A stretch of DNA of 60,063 nucleotides from positions 1 through 60,063 of the forward strand of contig CACNAY010000002.1 of assembly GCA_902618555.1 (NCBI GenBank). The letters are read 5' to 3'. Of the stretch, positions 27,837 through 34,626 are shown piece after piece (the stretch's first letter is position 1; the number at the start of each line of letters is the position of its first letter). This DNA is from an uncultured Pelagibacteraceae bacterium (GTDB taxonomy: Bacteria; Pseudomonadota; Alphaproteobacteria; Pelagibacterales; Pelagibacteraceae). The position numbers were made by a program, and so were the translations under genes. The notes beneath the pieces are model-generated. The model was given only the letters and a program-made list of their open reading frames with translations. It was not told the DNA's origin and did not search any database.

Positions 27837-29150
27837 ATGCCTGATAATTATAATCTTATTATTAAAAATGGTTCCTGTTATATCGATGGGAAATTAATTA
27901 AATCTGATATCGGTTTATATGAAAATAAAATTAAAAAAATAGGCAATATAGAGGGAAATAATTCTGAAGTTTACGACGCATCTGGCAAAGTAGTTTTACC
28001 AGGGATCATTGATACCCAAGTACATTTTAGAGAGCCTGGTTCTACAGATGCGGAAGATTTAGAAAGCGGAAGCAAAGCTGCAGTTCTTGGAGGAGTAACT
28101 TCTTTGTTTGAGATGCCCAACACCAACCCACCAACAGCAAATCTAGTAGAGTTTGAAAAAAAATTGAAAGCCGCAAAAAATAGAATGCATACTAATTACG
28201 CATTTTATTTTGGAGCAACTCCTCAAAATACTGAACAGCTTGCCCAACTTAAAAAAGTTGAAGGCTGTTGTGGAGTTAAACTTTTTGCAGGCTCTTCGAC
28301 AGGTAATCTGTTGGTTGATAAAGAAGCGGATATTGAAAAAGTGATTTCTAGTAGTGACAGGATAGTTTCAATTCACTCTGAGGATGAAGATATTATTAAA
28401 TTAAGAAAAAAATTTATCAGACAAGGAGATGTTCACTCTCATCCTGAATGGCGAAATGTAGAATGTGCAATGTCTTCAACTCGTAGAGTTGTAAAAATCG
28501 CAGAAAGATATGATAAAAAAATTCATGTTTTACATGTTACTACTAAAGAAGAGGTCGATTTTTTAGCTATGCATAAAAAAAATGTTACGTTTGAAACTAC
28601 CCCTCAACATTTAACTTTGTATGCACCAGATTGCTACGACAAGTTAGGAACTTACGCTCAAATGAATCCTCCCTTAAGATCAAAAGACCATTATGATCGT
28701 CTTTGGGTTGCTATTAAAAACAATGTAGTAGATGTCCTTGGGTCAGATCACGCTCCTCACTTAAAAACAAATAAAGATAAAGAATACCCTAACACTCCCT
28801 CAGGAATGCCAGGTGTTCAAACTATTTTTCCAGTTATGATTGATCATGTGAACAACGGAAAACTAGAGTTAAATCAACTCATAAATTTAATGTGTGAAAA
28901 TCCATGTAAAATCTTTGGAATTAAAAATAAAGGTTTTATTAAAGAGGGTTTTGATGCAGATTTGACGATAGTTGATATGGATAAAGAAGTTACTATAAAG
29001 AATGAAATGATAGCTAGCAAATGTGGATGGACACCCTTTCATAATTATAAAGTAAAAGGTTTCCCTGTAGGCACAATTGTAAACGGTATTTTAGTAATGT
29101 CCGAGGGAAAAATATTAGTTGAGTCTAAAGGGCAACCTTTAAAGTTTTAA
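27837..29150 (+). CDS. Dihydroorotase-like amidohydrolase (first metal histidine replaced by Gln)
   Basis: Amidohydrolase-fold protein of the type I dihydroorotase/hydantoinase group, 437 aa. The first metal motif reads DTQVHFREPG, so Gln61 stands where most members have the first His of HxH; His63 remains. Lys148 in GVKLFAGSS (carbamylated lysine position), His180 in IHSEDE, the His in HVLHVTT and Asp304 in GSDHAPH are kept. The sequence EMPNTNPPT is typical of dihydroorotases. As I recall, an alphaproteobacterial subfamily shares this Gln. Whether it makes dihydroorotate or acts on another cyclic amide is open. It starts 37 bases from divergent ygfZ. Confidence 0.85.
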   Translation: MPDNYNLIIKNGSCYIDGKLIKSDIGLYENKIKKIGNIEGNNSEVYDASGKVVLPGIIDTQVHFREPGSTDAEDLESGSKAAVLGGVTSLFEMPNTNPPTANLVEFEKKLKAAKNRMHTNYAFYFGATPQNTEQLAQLKKVEGCCGVKLFAGSSTGNLLVDKEADIEKVISSSDRIVSIHSEDEDIIKLRKKFIRQGDVHSHPEWRNVECAMSSTRRVVKIAERYDKKIHVLHVTTKEEVDFLAMHKKNVTFETTPQHLTLYAPDCYDKLGTYAQMNPPLRSKDHYDRLWVAIKNNVVDVLGSDHAPHLKTNKDKEYPNTPSGMPGVQTIFPVMIDHVNNGKLELNQLINLMCENPCKIFGIKNKGFIKEGFDADLTIVDMDKEVTIKNEMIASKCGWTPFHNYKVKGFPVGTIVNGILVMSEGKILVESKGQPLKF

Positions 29151-31024
29151 AATATTATTTTCTTTCAAGTCTTGTTTAATTTCATCTAAAATAACAGGGT
29201 CATCTATAGTTGCTGGCATTTTATAAGGTTCGTTATCAGCAATTTTTCTAACTGTTCCTCTGAGCACTTTTCCTGATCTAGTTTTAGGCAATCTCTTTAC
29301 TACAATTGCAATTTTGAATGCCGCAACAGGGCCAACTTTTTCTCTAACCATTTTAACACATTCGTTTATAATATCTTTTTTATCTTTGGTTACTCCTGCC
29401 TTAAGCGCTAGCAAACCAATAGGTATTTGACCTTTTAACTTATCAGCTATTCCTATCACTGCACATTCTGCAACATTTGGATGTTCTGCTAAAACTTCTT
29501 CAATAGCCCCAGTAGACAATCTATGACCAGCAACATTAATTATGTCATCTGTTCTAGACATGATCCAAACATAACCATCTTCATCAATGTGTCCTGCATC
29601 GTAAGTTTGATAATATCCTGGGTAAGTAGTCATATAATTCTCCTTATATCTTTTATCCGCTCCCCAAAGAGTTGGAAAAGTTCCTGGCGGAAGAGGGAGC
29701 TTGACAACAATATCGCCCCATCTTACCTGGACCTACTTCTTTACCCTCAGAATTTAAAACTTTTAAATCATAACCTGGCACCGGTTTAAAAGCTGATCCG
29801 TATTTTACAGGAAAATTTTCTATTCCTGTGCAACTTGATGTTATTGCCCAACTTGTTTCAGTTTGCCACCAATGATCGATTACAGGCGAGTTAGAAAGCT
29901 TTTCAAACCACTTTATTGTATCAGGGTCGGCTCTTTCACCAGCAAGAAATAGTTTATCAAACTTACTTAAATCGTATTTTTTAAAAAATTCTCCGTTAGG
30001 ATCCTCTTTTTTTGATAGCTCTAATTGCTGTTGGTGCAGTAAAAAGAGATTTTACTTTATGCTCTGAAATTACTCTCCAAAAAACTCCTGCATCAGGAGT
30101 CCCCACCGGTTTTCCCTCAAATAAAACTGTAGTACAGCCATAAAATAATGGACCATAAACTATATAAGAGTGCCCAACTATCCAACCAATATCACTAGCA
30201 GACCACCACACGTCATCGGGTTTAATATTGTAAATGTTTTTCATAGTCCATTTTAATGCAACTATATGTCCACCTATATCACGAACTATTCCTTTCGGTA
30301 GACCCGTAGTTCCCGATGTGTATAAAATATAAGCGTAATCATTTGCATTCATTTTTTCACACTCTGCAGGCTTCACATCTTTATGAGCATCATTCCAAGT
30401 AATATCGATTGCAGGATTTAATTCTGCTTTATCCTTTTCTCTTTGAAAAATTATACATTTTTTAATTTTATGATTTGCTAATTCCAATGCCTTATTAACT
30501 AAAGGTTTGTAATGAACAGTTCGTCCAGGCTCATAGCCACAAGAGGCGGTAACAAGTATTTTAGCTTTAGAGTCATCAATCCTGCTTGCTAGTTCGTTTG
30601 CAGCAAAGCCCCCGAATACAACTGAGTGGACTGCACCAATCCTTCCACAGGCAAGCATAGCAACCACTGCCTCAGGAATCATCGGCATATAGATTATAAC
30701 CCTGTCTCCTTTGGCAACACCTTGCTTTTTTAACGCTCCAGCAAATAAAGCAACTTTTTCTTTAAGTTTATTGTAAGTTATATTTTCTTTTGATCTAGTA
30801 ATTGGGCTGTCATAAATAATAGCGAGTTTTTCACCTCTACCTTGATCGATATGAAGATCTAAAGCGTTGTAACATGTATTTGTTACCCCATCTTCAAACC
30901 ATTTATAAAAGGGTGGGTTATCAGAATTTAAAATTTTTGTTGGTTTTTTGATACCAAAATATATCATTTGAAATTTCTTTCCAAAAATCCTCTCTATTTT
31001 TGATGGATTTTTGATAAATTTCAT
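29139..31024 (-). pseudogene. prpE: Propionyl-CoA synthetase (PrpE-type acyl-CoA ligase), two frameshifts
   Basis: AMP-forming acyl-CoA synthetase acting on propionate or acetate. The three frame segments together give about 628 residues, the normal PrpE length. Segment one (31024 to ~30010) has YILYTSGTTGLPKG and ends in PTAIRAIKK. Segment two (~30010 to ~29717) has DPNGEFFKKYD and the core motif DHWWQTETSW. Segment three (to 29139) has the late domain with GHRLSTGAIEE and the acylation-site motif RSGKVLRG. The breaks map to seven T at 30007-30013 and four C at 29716-29719; deleting one base in each restores a perfect frame. PrpE is favoured over Acs by DIGWIVGHSYIVYGPL and overall length. 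Confidence 0.88.
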
Positions 31025-31270: not shown

Positions 31271-32041
31271 ATGAGAAAATTAGGTCTTTTTGCTTTAGCA
31301 GCAGTTGCCTTTTTAGGTATAACTAGCCAAGCTAACGCAGCGACTGCCCTGTTACAAACAAATGATTTCGTAGGAATTTCATTCTGGCTTGTTTCAATGG
31401 GAATGATTGCAACAACTGTGTTTTTCTTTGCAGAAAGAGGAACTGTTGCGGCGTCATGGAGAACATCTTTAACAGTAGCAGGACTTGTAACTGGTGTTGC
31501 ATTTGTTCACTACATGTATATGAGAGAAGTTTGGGTGTCCACGGGTGACTCACCAACGGTATACAGATATATCGATTGGTTAATCACAGTGCCACTTCAA
31601 ATGATCGAATTCTATCTAATTTTGGCAGCTGTTAGAAAGGTGCCAACTTCTATATTTTGGAAGCTATTAATTGGTTCATTAGTAATGTTAATCGGTGGAT
31701 ACTTAGGTGAAGCAGGTTACATACAACCATTTGTAGGTTTCGTAATTGGAATGGCTGGATGGATTTACATCTTGTTTGAAATATTCTCAGGTGAAGCAGG
31801 AACAATGGCAGCTAAAGCTGGTAACAAAGCTATGGCTACAGCTTTCAGCGCTATGAGAATAATCGTAACTATTGGTTGGGCAATTTATCCTTTAGGATAT
31901 ATTTTTGGTTACCTAACTGGTGGTGTTGATGCAAATGCTTTAAACGTTATTTATAACTTAGCTGACTTTGTTAACAAGATCGCTTTTGGTCTAGTTATCT
32001 GGGCAGCAGCAATGCAAAATACAAGATTATCATCTAGATAA
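31271..32041 (+). CDS. Proteorhodopsin, blue-tuned light-driven proton pump
   Basis: Seven-helix retinal protein that pumps protons out of the cell in light. Of 256 aa, a signal peptide ends near ANA (residues 21-23). Relative to green proteorhodopsin the numbering is shifted by 5: His80 (H75), proton acceptor Asp102 (D97) in RYIDW, proton donor Glu113 (E108) and Schiff-base Lys236 (K231) in DFVNKIAFG. Residue 110 (position 105) is Gln (codon 31598-31600), the blue-absorbing variant. It starts after a strong Shine-Dalgarno and a structured leader and ends before a strong terminator, so it can be made as a single-gene transcript. No retinal-synthesis gene is in the window. Confidence 0.98.
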   Translation: MRKLGLFALAAVAFLGITSQANAATALLQTNDFVGISFWLVSMGMIATTVFFFAERGTVAASWRTSLTVAGLVTGVAFVHYMYMREVWVSTGDSPTVYRYIDWLITVPLQMIEFYLILAAVRKVPTSIFWKLLIGSLVMLIGGYLGEAGYIQPFVGFVIGMAGWIYILFEIFSGEAGTMAAKAGNKAMATAFSAMRIIVTIGWAIYPLGYIFGYLTGGVDANALNVIYNLADFVNKIAFGLVIWAAAMQNTRLSSR

Positions 32042-32055
32042 TAGATAATAAATTG

Positions 32056-32095
32056 AAAAGGGCGGGTATGTCTCACATACTTGCCCTTTTTTTTT
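32056..32095 (+). terminator. Rho-independent terminator of proteorhodopsin
   Basis: Arms 32056-32071 and 32075-32090 form a 16-bp stem (two G·T pairs) with a CTC loop; the GGGC/GCCC core is followed by a run of nine T (32087-32095). This is the best intrinsic terminator in the window. It separates the proteorhodopsin message from the ferredoxin genes. Confidence 0.92.
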
Positions 32096-32109
32096 GGTAT
32101 TAATTAATT

Positions 32110-32244
32110 ATGGAAATTTCTAAACCTTATAAAGGAAAAGGAAAAAGAAGATTAAAGAAAATGCCTTTTACTGTGAAAGGCTATATTCTCTATTATGCTT
32201 TTTTTTGGGTAGTTATCATTTCAATTTATTTGGCTTATTATTAA
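32110..32244 (+). CDS. 44-aa basic single-helix membrane peptide
   Basis: The ATG at 32110 opens 14 bases after the proteorhodopsin terminator and the stop lies 3 bases before the ferredoxin start, so the frame fills the space exactly. The peptide begins MEISKPYKGKGKRRLKK, very basic, followed by about 20 hydrophobic, tyrosine-rich residues ending IYLAYY. This predicts a cytoplasmic basic N-terminus and a single membrane helix. I do not recognise a family. Tight packing with ferredoxin suggests translational coupling and a role near that redox pair. Confidence 0.65.
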   Translation: MEISKPYKGKGKRRLKKMPFTVKGYILYYAFFWVVIISIYLAYY

Positions 32245-32247
32245 ACA

Positions 32248-32568
32248 ATGCCTAAAATTACTTTTATAGACTACAATGGAACTTCAAAAACTATTGAAGT
32301 TGAAAATGGTTTATCAGTTATGGAAGGCGCAATACAAAATGAAATACCTGGAATTGACGCTGACTGTGGGGGATCTATGGCATGTGCTACATGTCATGTA
32401 TATATTAAAGATAAATGGCTTAACAATATTCCAAAAGCAGAAGATGCAGAAATTGATATGATTGATATGGCTTATGAGCCTAAAAAAAATAGTAGACTAA
32501 GCTGTCAAATAATAGTTAGCGATGATTTAGATGGTTTAGAAGTAACAACACCAGAGAAACAAACTTAA
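32248..32568 (+). CDS. 2Fe-2S ferredoxin (adrenodoxin type)
   Basis: Small electron carrier of 106 aa. The cluster ligands are Cys40, Cys46 and Cys49 (CGGSMACATC) and Cys86 (RLSCQII), the C-x5-C-x2-C...C pattern of adrenodoxin/putidaredoxin-like proteins used in Fe-S assembly or with P450s and oxygenases. It overlaps the reductase gene by one base (TAATG), so the two form an electron-transfer pair. Confidence 0.95.
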   Translation: MPKITFIDYNGTSKTIEVENGLSVMEGAIQNEIPGIDADCGGSMACATCHVYIKDKWLNNIPKAEDAEIDMIDMAYEPKKNSRLSCQIIVSDDLDGLEVTTPEKQT

Positions 32569-33581
32569 TGAAAAAAACAGATGTGATAATTATTGGAGCT
32601 GGTCCAGTAGGCTTATTTGCAATTCATCAATTAGGCATTAAAGGTCTTGAAGCTATAGTTATCGATAACCTAGATAAAGCTGGTGGACAATGTATCGAAC
32701 TTTACCCAGATAAGCCAATTTACGATATTCCTGCAGTTCCAGAATGCACTGGTGAACAGTTAACCACAAGACTTCTTGAGCAGATAAAACCATTCAAAAC
32801 TGAGATGTTTTTAAATGAAAGAGTAGACGAGGTTTATCAAGAAAAAGAAAAATGGATAGTAAAAACAAATAATAAAAAAGAATTTATTGCACCTAATATT
32901 ATAATAGCTGGTGGAGTAGGGTCGTTTGAACCTAGGAAAATTCCACTAAAAGAGGCAGAAAAACTTGAGGGTAAATCTGTATTTTATTCAGTTAAAAATA
33001 AAGAAACGTTTAAAAATAAAAAAATTTCAATATTTGGAGGGGGAGACTCAGCTTTAGATTGGGCTTTAGAGCTTTCAAAATTTTCAATCGTAACGCTTAT
33101 ACATAGAAGAAATGATTTTAGAGGAGCGCAACATACTCTTTCAGAATTAAGAAAATTGGAAAAAGATGGAAAAGTCTCAATTAAAACACCTTGTCAAATT
33201 GAGTCTCTAGAAAATGAAAATGAATTAAAGTCTATCAATATTAAGTTTGAAGACGGGAAAATTGAAAAAATTCAAACTGATGTGATTCTTGGTTTGTTTG
33301 GTTTAATTATGAAACTAGGTCCGATAGCTGAATGGGGATTAAACATGGATAAAAAAACTATTGAAGTTAACCCAGAGAATTTTGAAACAAATAAAAAAGG
33401 TATATTTGCTGTTGGAGATATCTGCTCTTATCCTGGTAAACTAAAATTAATTCTATCTGGATTTCATGAAGTTGCTTTGGCTTCCGTAGAATGTTTTAAA
33501 AGAGCAAGACCTAATGAAAAATACAGATTTGAGTTCACGACATCTTCTAAAAATATTAAAGAGAGACTTGGAAAAAAATGA
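32568..33581 (+). CDS. Ferredoxin-NADP+ reductase, thioredoxin-reductase type
   Basis: FAD enzyme that exchanges electrons between NADPH and ferredoxin. Of 337 aa, the FAD motif is IIGAGPVGLFA (8-18), followed by AGGQCIELYPDKPIYDIPA. The NADP motif is IFGGGDSALDWAL near residue 157, and the late FAD motif is GIFAVGDIC. There is no CxxC in the NADP domain, so it is not a thioredoxin reductase; it matches the YumC-type reductases. The adjacent ferredoxin is the likely partner. It overlaps the GST-like gene by ATGA. Confidence 0.92.
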   Translation: MKKTDVIIIGAGPVGLFAIHQLGIKGLEAIVIDNLDKAGGQCIELYPDKPIYDIPAVPECTGEQLTTRLLEQIKPFKTEMFLNERVDEVYQEKEKWIVKTNNKKEFIAPNIIIAGGVGSFEPRKIPLKEAEKLEGKSVFYSVKNKETFKNKKISIFGGGDSALDWALELSKFSIVTLIHRRNDFRGAQHTLSELRKLEKDGKVSIKTPCQIESLENENELKSINIKFEDGKIEKIQTDVILGLFGLIMKLGPIAEWGLNMDKKTIEVNPENFETNKKGIFAVGDICSYPGKLKLILSGFHEVALASVECFKRARPNEKYRFEFTTSSKNIKERLGKK

Positions 33582-34204
33582 TAGAACTTCTTACCGCTAA
33601 CACCCCAAACGGTAAGAAAATCTCTATAATGCTTGAGGAGATAAATTTTAAGTATAAAGTAACAAAAGTAAATATTAATAAAGATGAGCAATTCAAACCA
33701 GAGTTTGTTAAACTCAGTCCTTTTAGAAAAATTCCCGTAATAATAGATCATGAAAACAATCAAAGTCTTTTTGAGTCAGGAGCTATTTTAATTTATCTTG
33801 GTGAAAAAAGTGGCAAGTTTTATGATTATGATAACAGAACTCAAATAAATCAGTGGTTAATGGGTCAAATGGCTTATGTGGGTCCAATGTTAGGTCAACA
33901 TCATCAATTTCATCACTATAACCCTGGAAAAAGTAAATTTGGAGAGGAAAGATATTTTAAAATATCAGAGAGAATTTATAAAGAATTAGATGAAAGATTA
34001 AGTTCATCAAAGTATCTAGCTGGAGATATTTACACAATAGCTGATATTGCTACTTTCCCTTGGATAGCTAGGCATGAATGGCATGATATTGGTCTTAAAA
34101 AATTCAAAAATTTGTCTAGGTGGTACAAAGAAATTTCATCTAGAGAACCTGTAAAAAAAGGATTTGATTTGTTAAAAAAAGGGGAAAAAATTCCTGAGAT
34201 TTAA
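33578..34204 (+). CDS. Glutathione S-transferase family protein
   Basis: Of 208 aa, the N-terminal thioredoxin-fold domain has LLTANTPNGKKISIMLEE and FRKIPVIID (cis-proline), with FESGAILIYLGEK as the glutathione γ-glutamyl motif. A helical C-terminal domain includes YTIADIATFPWIARHEW. This fits the nu-class/YfcG-YghU group, which often acts as a disulfide-bond reductase. The ATGA overlap with the reductase gene suggests co-expression with the ferredoxin system. The stop shares a TTAA with convergent dksA. Confidence 0.9.
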   Translation: MIELLTANTPNGKKISIMLEEINFKYKVTKVNINKDEQFKPEFVKLSPFRKIPVIIDHENNQSLFESGAILIYLGEKSGKFYDYDNRTQINQWLMGQMAYVGPMLGQHHQFHHYNPGKSKFGEERYFKISERIYKELDERLSSSKYLAGDIYTIADIATFPWIARHEWHDIGLKKFKNLSRWYKEISSREPVKKGFDLLKKGEKIPEI

Positions 34205-34626
34205 TCTTCAATAAATATTTTCTCATCTCTTTCATGTCTTTCCTGAGCTTCAATTGAGAGTGTAGCAACAGGCCTTGCCATTAATCTTTTTAGACCTATT
34301 GGTTCTCCGGTTTCTTCACAGAAACCGTAAGTTCCTTCTTTAATTCTTTGAAGAGCTGAGTTTATTTTTGATATTAATTTTCTGCTTCTGTTAAGAGCTT
34401 TCATTTCTACTGATTTGTCAGTATAAGAAGAGGCTTGATCTACAATATCTGCTGAAGAAACGTTATCATCGGAAGAATTAAGTAAATTCCCTAAATTATT
34501 AGCCTTAATAATATCATTTTTCCATTTTAAAAGTTCGTCTGTAAAAAATTTTTTGTGTTTTGCACACATGTACTTTTCTTTTGAATTCGGAGTATATTTT
34601 TTTTTAATAGTAGTTTTTTTTACCAT
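34201..34626 (-). CDS. dksA: DksA-type RNA polymerase-binding factor with degenerate zinc site
   Basis: Works with ppGpp at RNA polymerase to tune rRNA and amino-acid promoters. Of 141 aa, it has an N-terminal coiled-coil region and the C-terminal globule starting YGFCEETGEPIGLKRLMARP. Of the four zinc cysteines of E. coli DksA only Cys103 remains; the others are Thr106, Ser124 and Ala127. One-cysteine DksA proteins occur in other alphaproteobacteria, as I recall. Monocistronic and divergent from the GT39 gene over 72 bases. Confidence 0.88.
   Translation of the reverse strand: MVKKTTIKKKYTPNSKEKYMCAKHKKFFTDELLKWKNDIIKANNLGNLLNSSDDNVSSADIVDQASSYTDKSVEMKALNRSRKLISKINSALQRIKEGTYGFCEETGEPIGLKRLMARPVATLSIEAQERHERDEKIFIED

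Follow-up and report, generated by a model that had tools for sequence, protein, structure and literature searches.

The 44-codon frame between the proteorhodopsin and ferredoxin genes of an uncultured Pelagibacteraceae bacterium is a real gene under strong purifying selection, present in many SAR11 bacteria and usually at one copy per genome, as judged by comparison of genome sequences. The gene lies at different chromosomal places in different genomes and therefore does not serve as a partner dedicated to either the light-driven pump or the ferredoxin; we regard its independence of both neighbors as all but certain. Considering its size, its single copy, the constraint on its helix together with a basic tail, and this independence, the product could well assist a housekeeping complex of the inner membrane as an accessory peptide, a reading that we adopt tentatively.

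The window, the whole stretch of 60,063 nt that was analyzed, holds the frame with its ATG at 32110 and a TAA stop at 32242-32244 (Table 1). As described previously, the frame fills the gap that separates the proteorhodopsin terminator from the ferredoxin gene: its ATG lies 14 nt past the T-run of the terminator, and its stop is followed after 3 nt by the ferredoxin ATG at 32248. The assembly containing the window (65.5% complete) carries a single copy of the small gene. The gene adjoining proteorhodopsin on its other side (29139-31024, minus strand), which we take to be acetyl/propionyl-CoA synthetase-like, is broken over three frames in this assembly. Its counterparts in loci L047 and L048 stay open over 625 and 634 codons, respectively, and the split frames may reflect an assembly error or real damage.

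Table 1. Features in and around the gap between proteorhodopsin and ferredoxin (window coordinates)
Feature	Position	Strand	Basis
Gene for a 44-aa basic protein with a single predicted membrane helix	32110..32244	+	ORF, homologues, pN/pS, predicted helix
Proteorhodopsin, upstream neighbor	31271..32041	+	PF01036, E 1.5e-49
Intrinsic terminator of proteorhodopsin, hairpin and T-run	about 32058..32095	+	read by eye
-10-like element TATTAA, 6 nt 5' of the small-gene ATG; possible promoter of a leaderless mRNA	32098..32103	+	sequence
2Fe-2S ferredoxin	32248..32568	+	PF00111, E 3.1e-10
Thioredoxin-reductase-like flavoprotein, downstream neighbor	32568..33581	+	PF07992; TIGR01292 below its cut-off
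Glutathione-S-transferase-like (GST) gene, downstream neighbor	33578..34204	+	PF02798 and PF00043

Conservation and architecture of the small protein

An open reading frame of 44 codons is by itself no evidence of a gene, and it is conservation that marks this one as real. The preliminary description had proposed a homologue search of SAR11 genomes and a comparison of synonymous with nonsynonymous change, and both bear the frame out. A search of the 169 genomes in the genus of the window (g1) gave a homologue in 116 (E <= 0.01), and the best match in each of these starts at residue 1 and is free of stops. There is only one match at this threshold in 115 of them; the exception, G078, has a second match that holds three stops and lies among what we take to be riboflavin genes. 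The start codon was ATG in all 111 distinct loci of a list restricted to matches reaching residue 1.

Across 106 distinct copies, the mean minor-base fraction was 0.10, 0.05 and 0.30 at codon positions 1, 2 and 3, so that third positions are three to six times as variable as first and second positions. Substitutions were counted in the 107 of 115 distinct loci that could be aligned without gaps, 8 of them from the genera g2, g3 and g8; L031-L035, L078, L081 and L083 were dropped for gapped peptides. The resulting pN/pS was 0.185 overall, 0.071 for copies at the ferredoxin site and 0.296 for copies behind a thiolase gene, the latter set including g2, g3 and g8. Median identity to the window was 93% for the peptide (58 loci), limited as a measure by the choice of loci for carrying this same peptide, next to 81% for the ferredoxin (58), 86% for the reductase (56) and 97% for proteorhodopsin (58).

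Searches of sequence and structure collections gave the protein no family name, in keeping with its earlier listing as unrecognized. The window protein had no match in Pfam or NCBIfam at E <= 1, and 23 members of the family searched against Pfam at E <= 10 hit three families with one member each (E 0.27-2.8). A profile search of the PDB returned two chance-like matches (E 0.28 and 4.3). The literature consulted, including parts of PMC4013037 and PMC2217521, holds no description of this protein, which may still have been published elsewhere.

The product consists of about 20 mostly basic residues followed by one predicted helix. Seven lysines and two arginines among the first 23 residues agree with the highly basic start noted before, and the single hydrophobic helix noted with it was predicted at residues 22-43 by AlphaFold2 (20 alignment rows; mean pLDDT 96 for residues 31-40 and 90 for residues 41-44), with the basic N-terminal tail at low confidence. 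With 44 residues and this one helix, the protein falls into the class of bacterial small membrane proteins (under about 50 residues, one membrane helix), and a location in the membrane is predicted. Following the positive-inside rule, the tail would lie on the cytoplasmic side.

The tail varies in length and sequence and stays basic throughout, and it is poorly predicted next to a confident helix. Both features would suit the main rival of the accessory-peptide reading, namely that the protein is a membrane tether and uses its lysine-rich tail to bind ribosomes, RNA, DNA or anionic lipid instead of a specific protein complex. However, the join and the start of the helix are conserved beyond what a mere anchor would need (M1, P19, G24, Y25, Y28 and Y29 are invariant in 23 of 23 rows of alignment A2), and we consider the tether unlikely, while giving it real weight.

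Chromosomal sites within the genus

The coordinates of the small gene, the ferredoxin gene and the thiolase gene were compared across the 169 genomes. The gene lies directly before ferredoxin, as in the window, in 66 of the 116 gene-bearing genomes, where the ferredoxin match begins -2 to 19 nt from where the peptide match ends, with the stop codon left out of the count. A second arrangement, in 46 of the 116, has it immediately following a thiolase gene, recognized by its Pfam thiolase domains. There the match starts 2 nt past the thiolase match, and the thiolase stop overlaps the small-gene ATG (TAATG) in 43 of the 46; ferredoxin was found elsewhere in 35 of these genomes. The remaining 4 genomes have the gene beside fhs (formate-tetrahydrofolate ligase), and nadA or a CBS-domain gene flanks it on the opposite side. 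The synteny with ferredoxin that the preliminary description had proposed checking thus stands for 66 of 116 genomes and fails for the other 50.

None of the 116 genomes has the gene at both the ferredoxin and the thiolase site. Among the 97 genomes in which ferredoxin and thiolase were both found, 53 use the ferredoxin site, 35 the thiolase site, 4 the fhs-type site and 5 neither, with about 20 expected to have both if the sites were filled independently (53 x 35 / 93). This exclusivity (Fisher P = 1.4e-20, uncorrected for kinship) is not independent of kinship, because only 2 independent switches fall on well-supported branches of either tree; in that count, presence at one site was scored simply as absence from the other, so that it gives the number of switches and tests nothing more.

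Of the 53 genomes without a homologue, 48 also yielded no match for one or both of the usual sites. The five with neither arrangement are G013, G018, G019, G164 and G168. The thiolase match of G013 and G018 is only 60-63%, so that the true site may be missing, and G019 and G164 are 67% and 63% complete, respectively. G168 is 98% complete, has no match at E <= 10, and has both usual sites assembled and empty; it seems truly to lack the small gene, which is therefore not strictly indispensable. The proteorhodopsin of G168 (L090, L091) is just 80% identical to that of the window, and an imported proteorhodopsin-ferredoxin block may accordingly have displaced the gene.

Vacant sites were clean. 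In nine loci (L090, L093, L094, L104-L109), from thiolase-site genomes or genomes without the gene, nothing but a short AT-rich spacer separates proteorhodopsin and its terminator from ferredoxin, and the gap contains no remnant of the small gene. This includes all six thiolase-site genomes read at this position (L104-L109). Conversely, 26 thiolase loci of ferredoxin-site genomes held no trace of the small gene (best E 0.093): in 23 of them a histone-deacetylase-like gene begins 12-17 nt downstream, and in the remaining three (L100, L110, L117) 885-901 nt of other DNA come first. G158 combines an empty proteorhodopsin-ferredoxin gap with a thiolase-site protein identical to that of the window over all 44 residues, the two genes differing at 20 of 132 nt, all silent. 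A palindrome close to TGATAATGATTATCATT, which we take to resemble an iron-regulator (Fur) box, occurs just 3' of the small gene at several thiolase-site loci (L016, L023, L044-L046 and others) and also at L100.

Relatives, history and expression

A first profile (A1) matched 137 of 397 genomes of the family, 131 at E < 1e-7 and 6 weakly. Three of the six weak matches, in G051, G250 (L087, a weak g3 match) and G260, were rejected as chance-like. In the genera g2, g3 and g8, the gene follows thiolase in 15 of 15 loci read (L070-L084), its ATG overlapping the thiolase stop in most. Linkage to proteorhodopsin or ferredoxin is thus not conserved across lineages as it would be for an operon partner: 66 of the 116 genomes above show it, and the other 50 and all 15 of these loci have the gene elsewhere.

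Weak first-profile matches outside g1, g2, g3 and g8, including four g4 genomes, were accepted only after searches within g4 and a profile comparison. Relatives occur in 71 of 121 g4 genomes (64 at E < 1e-10), as peptides of about 38-44 residues with the same basic tail and helix-start motif ([KR]-x-Y-I-x-x-YY-x-x-x-W) as in the genus of the window. Alignment of the g1-type with the g4 profile by hhalign gave a probability of 95.8 and E 7.9e-9, in a single comparison of short hydrophobic profiles. The g4 profile matched 117 of the 397 genomes, with copies in g10 and g14 among them, and in 9 genomes it picked up the g1 gene in the correct frame (E 4.9e-5 to 1e-3); its matches of the same strength in G025 and G259 were discarded as chance-like. 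With this detectable homology, the g1/g2/g3/g8 and g4/g10/g14 peptides belong to one family. In the wider Alphaproteobacteria, 4 of 189 other genomes matched at E 0.003-0.009, about chance level.

Unlike the peptides themselves, their sites differ. We took 74 loci of g4, g10 and g14, 65 of them distinct: 43 are by GST and/or dksA, 11 by a speB-like (arginase-family) gene, 3 by a MOSC gene, 2 between ALDH and ccdA-like genes, and 6 elsewhere. The ALDH/ccdA-like pair comprises the two most divergent copies. The family therefore uses at least six sites, or seven counting the divergent copies. In some g4 loci (L291, L282, L292) the small gene adjoins MOSC-like or dksA genes near GST. In the window itself, a DksA-like gene (34201-34626, minus strand; labeled by its likeness to a gene in L272, Pfam DksA_N) is convergent with the GST gene and overlaps its end by 4 nt, and this GST-dksA interval is the place of the small gene in many g4 loci. 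Two gene indels downstream of proteorhodopsin, the MOSC gene CDS 629 and CDS 631, are described for HTCC1062 in PMC2217521. Together with the g4 placements by MOSC, dksA and GST, they suggest that this neighborhood may be a rearrangement hot spot.

Since all g2, g3 and g8 loci read follow thiolase, the thiolase site is likely ancestral, judging from these loci. We built a tree from 23 ribosomal-operon proteins (40 genomes picked from 46 with rplB, 56 searched; quick method, no bootstrap). All 20 of its ferredoxin-site genomes fell into one starred clade, which is itself nested among genomes that use the thiolase site. The same clade also includes two thiolase-site genomes (G030, G085) and G168, and a clade of just these 20, as expected had the ferredoxin site arisen once and cleanly, was rejected (AU P = 0.0025). 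As the ferredoxin-site genomes are not a clade, one thiolase-to-ferredoxin move would need two further switches, or recombination. The thiolase tree required 7 changes and may itself be recombinant. For the thiolase-site genomes inside the clade, nearest-copy distances do not discriminate between a regain from the ferredoxin site and its alternative.

This broken distribution, and the clean empty sites, could equally have been left by an old multi-copy gene that lost different copies in different lineages without ever relocating. Yet a good second copy was found in none of the 116 genomes, the extra match of G078 being interrupted by stops, and all 15 loci of the sister genera are at thiolase. 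We judge such differential loss improbable, to about the same degree as the tether.

The reading that we favor is a single-copy core gene that changes its place and borrows the expression signals of its neighbor. The proteorhodopsin terminator lies directly upstream in all 59 distinct ferredoxin-site loci. A hexamer TATA[TGC][TA] ends 5-9 nt before the ATG in 35 of the 37 loci that share one spacer type (7 nt in 24 of the 35); the pattern was picked after viewing the spacers and is present in 23% of shuffled ones. The other 22 loci, including the window with its TATTAA, have a different spacer. Shine-Dalgarno-like motifs are rare (2 of 59). A TATATT-like element was seen by eye before ferredoxin in most of the nine loci without the small gene. 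These motifs suggest a promoter and a leaderless mRNA at the small gene. At this site, the gene may have captured the ferredoxin promoter, which would yield a leaderless message with the small gene first and ferredoxin second.

Possible function and comparison with known systems

We propose that the protein acts as a stabilizing or assembly peptide that does not depend on its neighbors. Any expressed site would then serve it, and a second copy would not be kept. A bolder form of this proposal, doubtful as it stands, is that it is a core membrane protein of an abundant ocean bacterial family, overlooked for its tiny size, with a gene that moves cleanly among expressed sites while selection disfavors having no copy as well as having two. 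Its partner would be a subunit, specific to SAR11, of some core machine of the membrane. Under such selection every gain at a new site would come with a loss at the old one, and the gene would then be a natural system in which to follow how small genes relocate and capture promoters.

Being small, basic and single-helical, and changing its place, the protein also resembles a type I toxin-like hydrophobic peptide or another selfish small gene. The strong purifying selection and the one copy in most genomes make this very unlikely; additionally, viral contigs scanned twice for narrow peptide patterns gave 7 and 121 matches, none of which could be confirmed as a relative.

Even less probable is the earlier suggestion of a membrane anchor or coupler for the ferredoxin/reductase pair close to proteorhodopsin. 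The common gene order, with ferredoxin close behind, speaks for it. It is contradicted by the neighbor-independent conservation, that is, by the 46 thiolase-site genomes (ferredoxin lies elsewhere in 35), the six of six empty gaps, the sister genera likewise at thiolase, and the identical protein of G158. What stands of the preliminary description is a real, conserved, basic single-helix peptide; the coupling role does not.

SAR11 genomes are held to be streamlined, and a gene with its sequence kept and its place not kept is a candidate for a core function without a name in this group. These genomes are also strongly ordered: PMC2217521 reports that Sargasso Sea gene order matches that of HTCC1062 in 96% of cases. 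The small gene shows that neighborhood can mislead functional inference in SAR11, and its partner, once found, may apply family-wide.

Subunit IV of aa3 cytochrome oxidase (PF07835, COX4_pro_2) has the same size and architecture, with one helix, but an identity with it can be practically dismissed: none of the 23 members matches PF07835 at E <= 10, and five genomes that carry the small gene (G161, G113, G136, G086, G099) have above-cut-off PF07835 matches in a separate gene elsewhere.

The closest functional parallels lie in Escherichia coli, where KdpF is a small single-helix accessory protein and AcrZ has under 50 residues. CydX and AcrZ are described in PMC4325964, PMC6005532 and PMC7267776 as small proteins acting on a larger membrane complex. 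The SAR11 peptide shares with CydX, AcrZ and KdpF a length under 50 residues and one membrane helix, and it may work like them; with no sequence relation found, the comparison concerns the way of working only. It differs from all three in its long basic N-terminal tail and in a gene that is not fixed beside that of a partner.
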